This document shows, piece after piece, positions 1 to 55,343 of a stretch of DNA of 64,000 bases. The notes beneath the pieces are model-generated. The model did not search any database and was not told the DNA's origin. It saw only the letters and a list, made by a program, of their open reading frames with translations. The position numbers and the translations under genes are program-made. The stretch is from assembly GCF_000772955.1 (NCBI RefSeq), contig NZ_JPVO01000054.1, positions 1 through 64,000 on the forward strand. The letters run 5' to 3'. The stretch comes from Ureibacillus sinduriensis BLB-1 = JCM 15800 (GTDB lineage: Bacteria; Bacillota; Bacilli; Bacillales_A; Planococcaceae). Numbering within the stretch: the stretch's first letter is position 1; every line of letters begins with the position of its first letter.

Positions 1-399
1 TCCAGCAGGTCCAGTCGGTCCAGCAGGTCCAGTCGGTCCAGCAGGTCCAGTCGGCCCAGCAGGTCCAGTCGGTCCAGCAGGCCCAGTCGGCCCAATGATA
101 CCATTAGAGGTTAACTGAACAACTTGTTTCAATTTATTATCCAGTAATAATTCTTTTTTAATAGCCATAGCGAGTGTATCTTGCACACTAGTATTTACTG
201 TCAAAATATCCTCAAGAGAGGCTGGCGGGGATAACCCGGGGATTGTCCCTAATGAGTATTGTATTTTTTCACCTTCAGCATTAATGATATGTGCTAGACC
301 CAATTCTTCCATAGCAATTGATGCTAGAAGTAGATTAATTACAGAATTTCTGCTTAGGGAAATATTAGGGGTTATATTTGGTAAATTTGGTTGAGACAT
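1..399 (-). CDS. Collagen-like spore-surface-type protein, C-terminus cut by window edge
   Basis: The reading frame begins at ATG 399..397 behind an AGGAGAAG ribosome site and stays open to base 1, so the C-terminus is outside the window. The first ~100 residues ([11 protein letters not shown]..., then a segment with [16 protein letters not shown]) form the same N-terminal domain as the neighbouring gene at 708..1010. From about residue 103 it becomes Gly-Pro-Thr-Gly-Pro-Ala collagen triplets. Collagen-like proteins of this build are known from exosporium or spore-surface layers of Bacillales; that location is inferred here. The repeat DNA is a nearly perfect 18-bp tandem array, so its length probably varies between strains. 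Confidence 0.85.
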
Positions 400-707
400 T
401 CCACTTCTCCTTTCATATTAATTTGGTTGAACATATAACCTGATTTGAGTAATGACCAGACAAATTTTCTGTATTTGTTTGGCCATACACTCTTCTGTAA
501 TGTATTCCTTACAAACCAAGTAGTTAAGAATAAAAGCCTATATTAGGGAAACTTTCCCAAACTAAGGAAAACCAGCTCAGTTATATCAGGACTAAAAAAT
601 CTAGTTAATAAAAAAACTAGCGAATTAAATAAAGAACAAATATTTGGTAGAGTTATAATCTAGATGAAAAAAAGTTGAGTATTGCATAATAAAAAACTCG
701 TTTCCCA
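400..707. other. Intergenic region upstream of the collagen-like gene
   Basis: This stretch lies between two minus-strand paralogues and must hold the promoter of the collagen-like gene. It is AT-rich. I see no clear terminator for the 708..1010 gene and no convincing sigma-A promoter. A sporulation sigma factor promoter would be expected from the gene type but cannot be assigned by eye. Confidence 0.4.
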
Positions 708-1010
708 CTAAGAGTCAGAGAGTAAATCAATTACTTGTTTTAATTTATTATCCAGTAGTAACTCTTTTTTTATTGCCATAGCAAGTGTATCTCTTACACT
801 TGAATTGACTTCTAATATGTCATCAAGTGAAGCTGCGGGGGATAAACCTGGAATTGTACCAATGGAATATTGGATTTTTTCCCCTTCTGCGTTTATGATA
901 TGTGCTAGACCTAATTCTTCCATAGCTATTGACGCTAGAAGAAGATTAATAACATCTTCCCGATTAATGGAAATTATCGGTGTAATGTTCGGTAAATTTG
1001 GCTGTGACAT
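708..1010 (-). CDS. Paralogue of the collagen-like protein N-terminal domain, no collagen tail
   Basis: This 100-residue protein matches nearly residue for residue the first ~95 residues of the adjacent collagen-like protein ([14 protein letters not shown]..., [16 protein letters not shown], then [13 protein letters not shown]) but stops at LLSDS just where the other enters Gly-Xaa-Yaa repeats. The start is ATG 1010..1008 preceded by a purine-rich AGGGAGAAAG site. It probably assembles in the same spore layer, perhaps as a partner or cap for the collagen-like paralogue; that is inference. It could also be a remnant of a longer collagen gene that lost its tail, although the end is a clean stop codon. 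Confidence 0.75.
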
Positions 1011-21638: not shown

Positions 21639-21741
21639 TTGATAGATAAATAGGGGCGTAAGTCTTGGAAATAATTTTACCTATCAATAGAAAGCAGCTA
21701 AAGCTATACTATGCTTAATGTTAATTGAAGGAGATCAAGAA

Positions 21742-23163
21742 ATGAATGAAAACGCTGGATTACCAACTGAATTAATACATAAGAATGAAAAGAAATATTT
21801 TTGGCTTGTCCTTAGCATTAGTATGCTGATTTATATTGTATTGGCATTGTCGATTGTTGGGATAGTTGTTTTGGTTCTACTGATGTTGGTGTCATTATTC
21901 TTTAACGCGCTAATGATTGGAAATATTCGTTCGAATGCAGTGAAAATCAGCCCTGATCAGTTCCCGGAAATTTTTGGGAAAGCAGGGGAGCTATGCAGAA
22001 AGATGCAAATCGATAAAATTCCAGATATTTATGTGCAGCAATCAGGTGGGATGTTAAACGCCTTTGCAACAAGGTTTTTTGGACGAAATATGGTCGTGAT
22101 TTATGCAGAGATTTTTGAATTATACGGTACGAACGAGGAAGAGGAACTGAACTTTGTCCTGGCTCATGAACTTGCCCATATTAAACGTAACCATTTAACA
22201 AAACAGATGTTAATTTTACCGGCAATGTGGATACCCGGCGTTGCTGAGCTGTATTTGAGAGCGTGCGAGTATACTTGTGATCGTTACGCAGCCTACTACA
22301 CTGAAAATAGTGCTGCGGCCAAAAATAGCTTAACAATGCTCGCTATTGGAAAACAACTTTATTTGCATGTTAATAAAGAACACTATATGAAACAATTAAA
22401 TGAAGAAAAAGGGTTCATTGTTTGGCTAAGCCAAGTCTTATCAACTCATCCACCTCTACCAAAACGAATTGATGAAATTGGGTTGTTCTTTGGAGAGAAA
22501 GAAAAAGCACTGATTGAGCCAAACAAGATGAAAATTATTTGGTTACTGGTAAGTATTGCGATTTTCGGGTTTGGTGCTATTTTGTCAGCAGGGATTTACT
22601 ATTTTGCGAATACAGGACTATTAATTGACCTGATGGACGATTATGAGGACGCAGAATATTACGAGGACGAGGGGTATTATGAGGAAGAAATAGAAATCTC
22701 ACCATTCATCCAAGCGGTAGTAAATGGAGAAATCGAGCAAGTAGCGGCGATGATTGCTGAGGGGGAAGATGTTCACCAAGAAGACTATTACGGAAATACA
22801 GTCTTGGATTGGGCTGTGAAGAGTGGTGATGCGAAAATGGTGGAATTGTTGCTCGAGTCTGGAGCAGATGCAAATTACGAAAGTAGTTATGGAATGACGG
22901 CATTAATGACGGCCGCTGAAATGGGTGACCCGGAAATGGTTAAGCTGCTGGTTGAATCTGGTGGGGATCCAAATTATCAAGAATACAGCGGACTGACGGC
23001 ATTAACTTATGCAATTCAAAGCTCGGATATGGAAACGGTTCAAACTTTACTCGACCTGGGAGCAGATCCAAGTTTAATTGATTCAGAAGGCATGAACGCC
23101 TATATGATAGCAATTCAGGCAGGGAAGCGGGAAATCGCGGAACTTTTGAAGTACGATAATTAA
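21742..23163 (+). CDS. M48 membrane metalloprotease fused to ankyrin repeats
   Basis: The 473-residue protein has two adjacent TM helices (~19-58), then an M48 peptidase domain with the zinc motif HELAH at 142-146 and the third ligand Glu ~176 in ACEYTCDRYAAYY, and a further TM helix (~264-290). An acidic Asp/Glu/Tyr-rich linker leads to about four ankyrin repeats (~325-473; GNTVLDWAVKSGDAKMVELL, GMTALMTAAEMGDPEMVKLL, etc.). M48 membrane proteases such as HtpX take part in quality control of membrane proteins; the cytoplasmic ankyrin array could recruit substrates or a regulator. The start is ATG 21742 behind AAGGAGATC. The fusion is unusual and not a frame artefact: the frame is continuous. 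Confidence 0.85.
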   Translation: MNENAGLPTELIHKNEKKYFWLVLSISMLIYIVLALSIVGIVVLVLLMLVSLFFNALMIGNIRSNAVKISPDQFPEIFGKAGELCRKMQIDKIPDIYVQQSGGMLNAFATRFFGRNMVVIYAEIFELYGTNEEEELNFVLAHELAHIKRNHLTKQMLILPAMWIPGVAELYLRACEYTCDRYAAYYTENSAAAKNSLTMLAIGKQLYLHVNKEHYMKQLNEEKGFIVWLSQVLSTHPPLPKRIDEIGLFFGEKEKALIEPNKMKIIWLLVSIAIFGFGAILSAGIYYFANTGLLIDLMDDYEDAEYYEDEGYYEEEIEISPFIQAVVNGEIEQVAAMIAEGEDVHQEDYYGNTVLDWAVKSGDAKMVELLLESGADANYESSYGMTALMTAAEMGDPEMVKLLVESGGDPNYQEYSGLTALTYAIQSSDMETVQTLLDLGADPSLIDSEGMNAYMIAIQAGKREIAELLKYDN

Positions 23164-23180: not shown

Positions 23181-23427
23181 AGCGTCCATCATAAGTGGAC
23201 GACCAGATTGTAGACAAAGTCGATATTCGACTTTGTCTACATGTTTTTTTAGGTTATTTCCTTACAAATAAAGAGTTATTCATACTGTCTTGAAAACGCT
23301 TCGCAGACAAGGCGGGCAGTTGAGTGAAGAGATGAATAGAACATTACGTTCACGAGGGGACGAACGAGACAACCAACGCAGGATGAAAGCGTTCGTCAAC
23401 AGTCTGAGCGTCCGTCATAAGTGGACG
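23181..23427 (+). repeat. Dispersed ~205-bp repeat nested in a duplicated terminator hairpin (copy 1)
   Basis: The element body (23202..23406) matches the reverse complement of 54953..55152 over its whole length; for example 23329..23352 and 23368..23393 are identical to 55007..55030 and 54967..54992. It is bounded by two copies of a 21-bp hairpin (23181..23201 and 23407..23427, one mismatch: AGCGTCC, 7-base loop region, GGACG). Only the right copy has the T-tract (CCTTTTTAT). The hairpin is the terminator of the M48 gene and is not part of the other copy, so it looks like a target-site duplication. The body contains its own terminator near the left end. Confidence 0.8.
23210..23251 (+). terminator. 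Terminator carried inside repeat copy 1
   Basis: A perfect 14-bp stem (GTAGACAAAGTCGA and its complement, 3-base loop) followed by ATGTTTTTTTA. The same structure occurs in reverse at 55105..55149, so it belongs to the repeat. Confidence 0.85.
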
Positions 23428-23544
23428 CCTTTTTATATAGAGGAGTATTTAAAAGGATAAACAACAGCAAAACTAGAAGTTATAAAAGGGAGCGCAGTCC
23501 GTCACGGTTTGGTTAATGAAAAAAGCACTTAATGGAGGTTTGAT

Positions 23545-54130: not shown

Positions 54131-54917
54131 TTTACATGCTGCTCCTGATTCCGCATCGGAGCTGATAGATGAAGGACTATATGGAATGGTTGTAGAAATA
54201 GTGGAACAACGACATGACTGGTTCTTTGTAAAAACTCCTTACCGCTATGAGGGCTATTGCAAGGCGTCTGATTTAATATTGGATACAGAAAACGCAATTG
54301 AGTGGCAGGAAGGTGCGAACCATTGCATTTCTCAAGGTTTTGCGGATGTTTTGCAAGAGCCTAAAATTCAAAGTGCAAAAATAACAACGCTTGTGAGGGG
54401 TTCAATTATTCGTGTCTTGCCAAAGGAAGGATTAGGAGAAGAGTGGACTATAATCCAACTGGCGACAGGCGGAGTAGGATTTACCCGTAAGCAGTGGATT
54501 AAAGAGAAAGTAGATCGAAATGAATTAACCGAAGATAATTTTAGGGATCGAGTCGTACAGACGGCATTAAGTTATCTAACAACGCCGTATCGATGGGGCG
54601 GGAAGTCGCCTTTAGGAATTGATTGTTCAGGTCTTTGCTCGATGGCTTATATGTTGAATGGCGTAGTAATCTATCGGGATGCCAAAATGATAGACGGGTT
54701 TCCCATTAAAGAAATCGAAATGGAACAGATTCAAAAGGGCGATCTTCTATACTTTCCCGGCCATATTGCCATGTATATAGGGGATGATTTGTACGTGCAT
54801 TCATCCTTGGGAGGGAATGAAGTGAGTATAAATAGTTTAAATAAGTCGCATTTTCACTATCGCGATGATTTGGCCACAACAATCACGGCAGTAGGTAGCT
54901 TATTTCCTGCAAAATAA
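54099..54917 (+). CDS. ykfC: Gamma-D-glutamyl-diamino acid endopeptidase YkfC (NlpC/P60)
   Basis: The ~272-residue protein has two N-terminal SH3b-like segments (ANLHAAPDSASELIDEGLYG; GFADVLQEPKIQ...IIRVLPKEG) and a C-terminal NlpC/P60 catalytic domain: YRWGGKSPLGIDCSGLCS with the nucleophilic Cys (~179), then FPGHIAMYIG with His. YkfC cuts the D-gamma-Glu to diamino acid bond in peptides with a free N-terminal L-Ala. No signal peptide is seen, fitting cytoplasmic use. The ATG at 54099 is preceded by AAGGAGG; it overlaps the upstream gene, so translation is coupled. It is the last gene of the operon. Confidence 0.9.
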   Translation: MKAVIKSMIANLHAAPDSASELIDEGLYGMVVEIVEQRHDWFFVKTPYRYEGYCKASDLILDTENAIEWQEGANHCISQGFADVLQEPKIQSAKITTLVRGSIIRVLPKEGLGEEWTIIQLATGGVGFTRKQWIKEKVDRNELTEDNFRDRVVQTALSYLTTPYRWGGKSPLGIDCSGLCSMAYMLNGVVIYRDAKMIDGFPIKEIEMEQIQKGDLLYFPGHIAMYIGDDLYVHSSLGGNEVSINSLNKSHFHYRDDLATTITAVGSLFPAK

Positions 54918-54926
54918 TGACAGTGA

Positions 54927-55178
54927 GGCACATCATCAAATAAGATGATGTGCCTCACTGTTGACAAACGCTTTCATCCTGCGTTGGTTGTCTCCTTCCC
55001 CCCTCATGAACGTAATGTTCTATTCATCTCTTCACTCGACTGCCCGCCTTGTCTGCCAAGCGTTTTCAAGACAGTCTGGGTAATTTTTCATTGAAAAAAA
55101 TAGCCTAAAAAAACGTGTAGGCAAAGTCGAAGATCGATTTTGTCTACACTCTGGCACATCATCAAGTAAGATGATGTG
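54927..55178 (-). repeat. Dispersed ~200-bp repeat nested in a duplicated terminator hairpin (copy 2)
   Basis: The body (54953..55152) is the reverse complement of the repeat body at 23202..23406. It is bounded by two copies of a 26-bp hairpin (54927..54952 and 55153..55178, one mismatch: GGCACATCATC, 4-base loop region, GATGATGTG), different in sequence from the hairpin at copy 1. Only the distal right copy is followed by TTTTTTTG. The hairpin is the terminator of the muropeptide operon. The left copy gains a 17-bp perfect stem with flanking CAGTGA/TCACTG. Confidence 0.8.
55105..55149 (-). terminator. Terminator carried inside repeat copy 2
   Basis: TGTAGACAAAATCGA and TCGACTTTGCCTACA form a stem with a T-run on the minus strand, equivalent to the one at 23210..23251 in copy 1. 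Confidence 0.75.
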
Positions 55179-55343
55179 TTTTTTTGAGGTTTTGGAAAAA
55201 TTCGATTAACAAGTACCAGGCAATATTTTAGTTCGATTCATGTTTATCGGACATCCAAAATGATTAATACTACAAAAGTAAACAATTGCGTTTACATAGA
55301 ACAAAAATGGGTACTATGAATTAAGGAAAAATGGAGGTCGATT

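Follow-up and report, generated by a model that had tools for sequence, protein, structure and literature searches.

Targeting of hairpins and terminators by elements of the IS1182 family has already been published (PMC3098183, PMC4923244, PMC5678879). IS1272 and TnSha1 of Staphylococcus, both of this family, take as targets stem-loops without a sequence consensus, several of them terminators, and TnSha1 is reported in both orientations at one target; the stem-loop is deleted or replaced and no target duplication results (PMC5678879, PMC4923244), whereas at the sites described here the whole stem-loop is duplicated. Duplication of a whole hairpin does figure as pathway b in the model of Fig 13 of PMC5678879, presented there as a possibility beside the replacing pathway that fits IS1272. 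ISCbo5 and ISBma2 of clostridia belong to the same family, and all of their sites but one lie at hairpins at gene ends, which were read as transcription stop signals; the insertion-site description in that paper, however, does not state that the hairpin is duplicated (PMC3098183). Non-autonomous elements with IS1182-like ends or an IS1182-family partner are also on record: the IS1182-related MITEPye1 of Paracoccus yeei, whose direct repeats are of 4 bp and which numbers 1-3 copies in each chromosome (PMC11578231), and the ISMac2-related MITEs (PMC3852290). For neither do the passages that deal with these MITEs describe hairpin duplication (PMC11578231, PMC3852290).

The initial annotation of the locus presented here had held that no such element was known. 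This needs to be toned down, since insertion of IS1182-family elements into terminator hairpins is published. The literature searched (with subscription reviews and ISfinder outside it) contained no report of a MITE that duplicates its hairpin, of whole-hairpin duplication as a rule, or of a clade split in this respect. Whole-hairpin duplication may be known to curators; the ISfinder family table reportedly lists direct repeats as long as about 60 bp for IS1182, and curators may have seen long repeats.

The window (the whole stretch of 64,000 nucleotides of Ureibacillus sinduriensis that was analysed) contains two elements that are reverse complements of each other, as had been annotated; their refined borders and their flanks are given in Table 1. 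Both are flanked by direct repeats of a hairpin. These had been put at 21 and 26 nt with one mismatch each; with the refined borders the length at copy 2 is unchanged, the repeats at copy 1 are 23 nt long, and each pair has two mismatches. The remaining details hold: the hairpin sequence differs between the two sites and belongs in each case to the terminator of the local host gene, the T-run is found only past the distal copy at both, and a terminator of the element's own is predicted. We take the ORF upstream of copy 1 to encode, by eye, an M48-peptidase/ankyrin protein; the ORF upstream of copy 2 is presumably NlpC/P60-like, again by eye. At copy 2 one end of the MITE is mutated (CTCACTGT for CAGACTGT) and consequently pairs with the upstream flank, by which the proximal hairpin is lengthened to a perfect stem.

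Table 1. Features of the two MITE copies and their flanks in the window.
Feature	Position	Strand	Remarks
MITE copy 1, 203 bp	23204..23406	+	ends CAGATTGTAGACAAA / TTCGTCAACAGTCTG
Proximal copy of host-terminator hairpin (TSD), copy 1	23181..23203	+	no T-tract on this side; 2 of 23 nt differ from distal copy
Distal hairpin copy, copy 1	23407..23429	+	followed by TTTTT at 23430; host terminator of ORF 21718-23163
Left terminal hairpin of MITE copy 1	23209..23241	+	perfect 15-bp stem; TG and T7 (23244-23250) follow; predicted terminator of the element itself
MITE copy 2, 200 bp	54954..55153	-	orientation opposite to copy 1
Proximal hairpin copy (TSD), copy 2	54928..54953	+	within 18-bp stem 54920-54961, which includes the mutated MITE end
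Distal hairpin copy, copy 2	55154..55179	+	followed by TTTTTT at 55180; host terminator of ORF ending at 54917

Both ends of the MITE are hairpins. On the left, TGTAGACAAAGTCGA...TCGACTTTGTCTACA forms a hairpin with a T-run behind it, which is predicted to act as a terminator. The right hairpin encloses some 85 nt: in it ACAGTCTG, at the very end, is paired with CAGACTGT further in, and AAGCGTTT is paired with AAACGCTT. In the terminal hairpins of 62 copies (61 distinct) 94% of cells remain paired, and compensatory change is evident: 36 cells carry double changes, compared with 9.5 after shuffling and at most 15 in slid controls. Three short forms of 140, 137 and 109 bp (L055, L056 and L057) have lost inner sequence and kept both ends together with the flanking repeats. 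The element is about 200 bp long, is without useful coding sequence and has terminal inverted repeats in common with an autonomous element, as a MITE should; judged from sequence – the same end motif and the same layout of terminal hairpins – the window elements are a non-autonomous element of the IS1182 family. A retroelement resembling group IIC introns and landing after terminators would share the association with terminators and the structured element of 200 nt, but no Rfam family is matched at gathering score in the window, the MITE occurs in either orientation with respect to the terminator, and its inverted terminal ends are those of a DDE transposon: we see next to no chance that such an element is the explanation.

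The MITE of the IS1182 family is present in at least 46 copies, some of them partial, in the 4.0 Mb genome. These loci (L001-L030, L036-L045 and L052-L057) are the best 40 of 69 candidates from a similarity search of the genome plus six from a search with the end motifs; matches to the end motifs number 66 + 65 in this genome, against 8 + 8 for the control, and the data suggest a total, with IS remnants counted in, of some 55 copies. At 43 of the 46 loci (all but L043, L053 and L054) the two ends were located. As a control, 1,806 mismatched flank pairs were aligned, and direct repeats were accepted where the alignment of left and right flank scored higher than their 99th percentile: this is true for 33 of the 43 copies, 30 of which exceed the highest control pair. 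For 22 of the 33, the repeat contains a hairpin that exceeds the control, here the 95th percentile of random stretches of 40 nt. The 11 repeats below this threshold have shorter or imperfect hairpins and include window copy 1, whose stem is short, and L004, whose repeat has no hairpin at all.

MITE-like copies in relatives behave similarly. Here 49 loci were given, 17 were not located and 32 were analysed, with 992 mismatched pairs as control; repeats are found in 24 of the 32, strong hairpins in 21 of these 24, and the two hairpin copies are identical at L059, L062, L073, L181, L183, L188, L189, L191 and L198. Copies lacking a duplication had been named beforehand as something that would speak against duplication of the target, and they do occur beside those with repeats: a significant flanking repeat is absent from 10 of the 43 copies in the genome itself and from 8 of the 32 in relatives. 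Five of the ten (L026, L038, L040, L045 and L052) keep a strong hairpin on one side, as expected for old copies, and the other five do not; repeat-less MITE copies are read as the outcome of decay or rearrangement. In three genomes (L076, L077 and L079) a stretch of 126-128 bp akin to the right part of the MITE lies between near-identical flanks without flanking repeats, and may be an old copy passed on at a single locus.

The genome that carries the MITE has five matches to IS1182-family transposases, none above the cut-off, the fragments being interrupted or short. No intact IS1182 element was found in this draft genome; a multi-copy IS may be missing from a draft assembly. One IS right end searched against it gave no match, a result that carries no weight. 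Three of the IS1182 places can be read at their start: each begins with CAGACTGTAGACAAAC or a one-base variant, this start belongs to a hairpin with a T-run behind it, and the places themselves adjoin hairpins. Among 250 genomes of the family, IS1182 matches occur in 188 and exceed the cut-off in 94, and matches to the MITE query occur in 65, many only over the left-end hairpin (some 45 bp). One relative (G149) has an intact IS1182 element whose left end and that of the MITE match over 47 bp at 87%.

The transposase of a relative (L107) scores 472.9 bits against NF033551, for which the curated NCBIfam cut-off is 270, and has the Pfam domains DDE_Tnp_1_6 and DDE_Tnp_1. In 21 proteins of the clade to which the duplicating elements belong (clade A), D146, D251, D275 and E402 are invariant, as are the cysteines C324, C350, C353 and C359; the catalytic residues presumably lie among the first four. 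The AlphaFold model of the transposase (mean pLDDT 77.8) has the Mos1 transpososome as its best Foldseek match, a weak one (E 9.3e-4, TM-score 0.17 by query), and the predicted fold resembles RNase-H-like transposases and integrases only weakly; a search by sequence found no relative of solved structure (best E 0.2). Most likely, then, the MITE is moved by a transposase of the IS1182 family, of which relatives have intact copies and this draft genome broken ones.

MITE and IS1182 elements share the same kind of target duplication, that of a hairpin. Seventy clade A IS loci were given, and 63 have both motif-defined ends (L090, L096, L116, L118, L119, L127 and L173 were dropped). Direct repeats flank 58 of the 63 copies, 53 of them without mismatch: their lengths run from 20 to 52 bp with a median of 27 and take 17 values, odd and even, and a target-site duplication (TSD) of fixed length is rejected on these lengths. 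None of the 3,906 mismatched flank pairs reaches the score of the clade A TSDs (maximum 6). A T-run after the repeat or an A-run before it, as at terminators, is present in 53 of the 58.

A single hairpin sequence at all copies, which had been named beforehand as a sign that the hairpin is part of the element, is not what is found, all 58 TSDs being distinct. Pairwise BLAST within genomes, for which no motif is assumed, delimited the element completely in eight of the 13 groups of clade A (G125, G106, G102, G149, G122, G131, G119 and G188), the other five having one or both borders inside the element. Outside these borders lie different palindromes at each site, yet in those eight groups the IS copies of one genome share 94-100% identity, and this is evidence against the proposal that the hairpins belong to the element. 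Its variant, that the element lies between two pre-existing hairpins, is contradicted by relatives whose empty sites have one hairpin (below). Two different hairpins do stand on either side of 5 of the 63 IS copies, those without a repeat (L091, L114, L137, L162 and L178), as both versions would allow; we nevertheless consider the proposal in either version very improbable, and the two-hairpin copies are read as products of recombination between copies. At one of them (L137, in G149) the right hairpin occurs once in the genome, as it would after a deletion between two IS copies; the single place of this hairpin fits such a deletion without proving it.

Empty sites, whose absence from relatives had likewise been held in advance to count against insertion, exist for window copy 2 and for one IS copy. 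The site of copy 2 has one similar hairpin with a T-tract and no element in four species (G113 and G119, loci L261 and L262; G125 and G143, loci L263 and L264); one arm of this hairpin, GCACATCATC, is identical in all four, and the other arm has changes of the G:U type in three. The IS copy (L124) stands in G125 at the terminator of a gene that we take, by eye, to be msrB-like: two species of the genus (G113 and G143), which align through the joined flanks, have one hairpin and a T-tract there. Tandem hairpins before insertion are ruled out by these sites with one hairpin. At the site of copy 1, three relatives have the upstream gene and no element, and their terminator hairpin is of another sequence; with the sequence turned over in this way, the site gives no indication of the ancestral hairpin. 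The terminator of the same msrB-like gene carries IS1182-type insertions in two further species of the genus (L244 and L252), and the three insertions, in three species, are apparently independent.

The empty sites also bear on replacement of the hairpin in the manner of IS1272. This would be attractive in that the transposase family is the same and hairpin targeting by it is published, but two full hairpins flank the element where relatives have one, and 58 of 63 IS copies duplicate: for clade A, replacement instead of duplication is contradicted, and we give it scarcely any credence. The repeats, the distinct TSDs and the empty sites together support what the initial annotation had proposed, a hairpin-sized duplication of the target by a MITE-like element that would depend on an enzyme supplied in trans.

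The TSDs of the clade A elements are self-complementary from end to end. Of the outer 8 positions, 7.57 pair on average (2.2 after shuffling), and pairing collapses to 2.6 when the frame is shifted by 1 nt and to 2.8 when one end is moved by 1 nt: the two cuts are thus symmetric about the dyad of the target. The offset of the dyad centre is 0 in 57 of the 58 TSDs, and in 56 of the 58 if hairpins are sought in the wider context, so that the TSD is, as far as comparison of sequences establishes it, a dyad-centred stem-loop. The cut falls symmetrically, 1-4 nt beyond the outermost G:C pair, in 48 of the 58; among the remaining 10 are 8 in which the inverted repeat extends further outward on at least one side. 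Since cutting does not occur at the outermost foot of the repeat in every case, the correlation of TSD length is only moderate, both with the G:C span (r = 0.47) and with the maximal repeat span (r = 0.54). The first base of the TSD is A in 84-86% of cases, and targeting thus has a sequence component too.

DDE transposases link an element to the strands of its target through the element's 3' ends. We consider it probable that the element is an IS1182-family MITE for which a clade A transposase, acting in trans, strikes the 5' feet of a stem-loop, the stem-loop being duplicated by gap repair. In this reaction the transposase, with DDE chemistry, would pick a stem-loop, usually an intrinsic terminator; the 3' ends of the transposon would be joined at symmetric points near both 5' feet of the folded target, one per strand; and repair of the gaps would leave the element between two copies of the entire stem-loop. 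That the target is extruded, as a cruciform or a hairpin, when attacked is suggested chiefly by the 17 lengths and the dyad symmetry. We also infer which 3' end would join where, and that these particular MITEs were moved by an IS1182 transposase. A transposase dimer that reads the inverted repeat in ordinary duplex with flexible spacing, no hairpin being extruded, would equally yield dyad symmetry and A at the first duplicated base, and would accommodate cuts that are not always at the outermost foot; its targets, however, differ in sequence in all 58 cases, and lengths that vary over 17 odd and even values would be awkward for a rigid dimer on the helix. We hold this duplex reading to be rather unlikely. 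Attack on a folded stem-loop, for its part, agrees with pathway b of Fig 13 in PMC5678879.

If the whole folded stem-loop is duplicated, the size of the duplication is set by the fold of the target and is not fixed. For most transposons TSD length is set by the enzyme; a TSD whose length follows the target stem-loop would be a natural read-out of structure recognition, and the insertions provide a large, ready set of sites for testing extrusion of terminator hairpins in cells. They also point to a strategy of neutral insertion, in which the distal hairpin keeps its T-tract and the MITE brings its own predicted terminator: if this is true, terminators would be safe landing sites throughout the genome, copied rather than destroyed by insertion.

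At the level of the class, 30 loci were considered (L200-L229). Hairpin repeats are present at 13 (L200, L204, L206, L207, L208, L211, L213, L214, L215, L216, L221, L228 and L229), those of L214 and L228 being partial or weak and L204 being the same place as L161. Six could not be assessed (L212, L217-L220 and L223) because on short contigs the two search stretches overlap. The remaining 11 have no hairpin repeat (L201, L202, L203, L205, L209, L210, L222, L224, L225, L226 and L227): among them L202 is the place of L114, L205 is that of L091, L227 is a remnant in the MITE-bearing genome itself with half a hairpin repeated, and the two hairpins at L209 differ from each other. Hairpin repeats reach other families of the class, with transposases of clade A type whose identity goes down to 44-45% (L229, and L228 with a weaker repeat). 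Duplication is seen in two of five plasmid copies, those on pB of Peribacillus sp. R9-11 and pBH-BAT-167 of Sutcliffiella horikoshii (L231 and L233); in two others the hairpin at one end differs from that at the other (L230 and L232). ISEfa7 of Enterococcus faecium plasmids is close in that its transposase is 56% identical to the clade A query and its left end is similar, but the one plasmid copy examined (L234) has no hairpin duplication.

In a midpoint-rooted FastTree tree, printed without support values, the duplicating elements fall in one clade, along with L210 and L225, at which no repeat was seen, and L114, which has two different hairpins. Elements of 1.8-2.06 kb with other ends (clade B) group apart. 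Hairpin repeats are found at none of the 16 clade B copies with borders; L143 alone exceeds the 99th percentile of the control (control maximum 23), and its repeat is T-rich and has no hairpin. Taking the members down to 44-45% identity together, we lean towards recognition of the fold as a property of the whole of clade A: its transposases would attack an extruded stem-loop at both feet in symmetry, in the way of a junction-resolving enzyme, with the hairpin as TSD, and the sister clade would be non-duplicating. With one clade that duplicates and one that does not, it becomes possible to test which residues, and which choice of strand, underlie each outcome. Of 379 plasmid records that match a clade B protein, 60 were listed; in these, the named annotations ISSep1, ISSau3 and IS1182 itself belong to proteins with 50-53% identity to it.

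Two minor observations may be added. At one clade B copy (L142, in G172) the flanks are two inverted arms (AAAAAGCT / IS / AGCTTTTT), as if the top of a hairpin had been entered or replaced without duplication, in this one case only. At the start of the window (1-1010) two adjacent minus-strand ORFs have an N-terminal domain in common, and the first of them extends past the window edge into collagen-like GPTGPA repeats.
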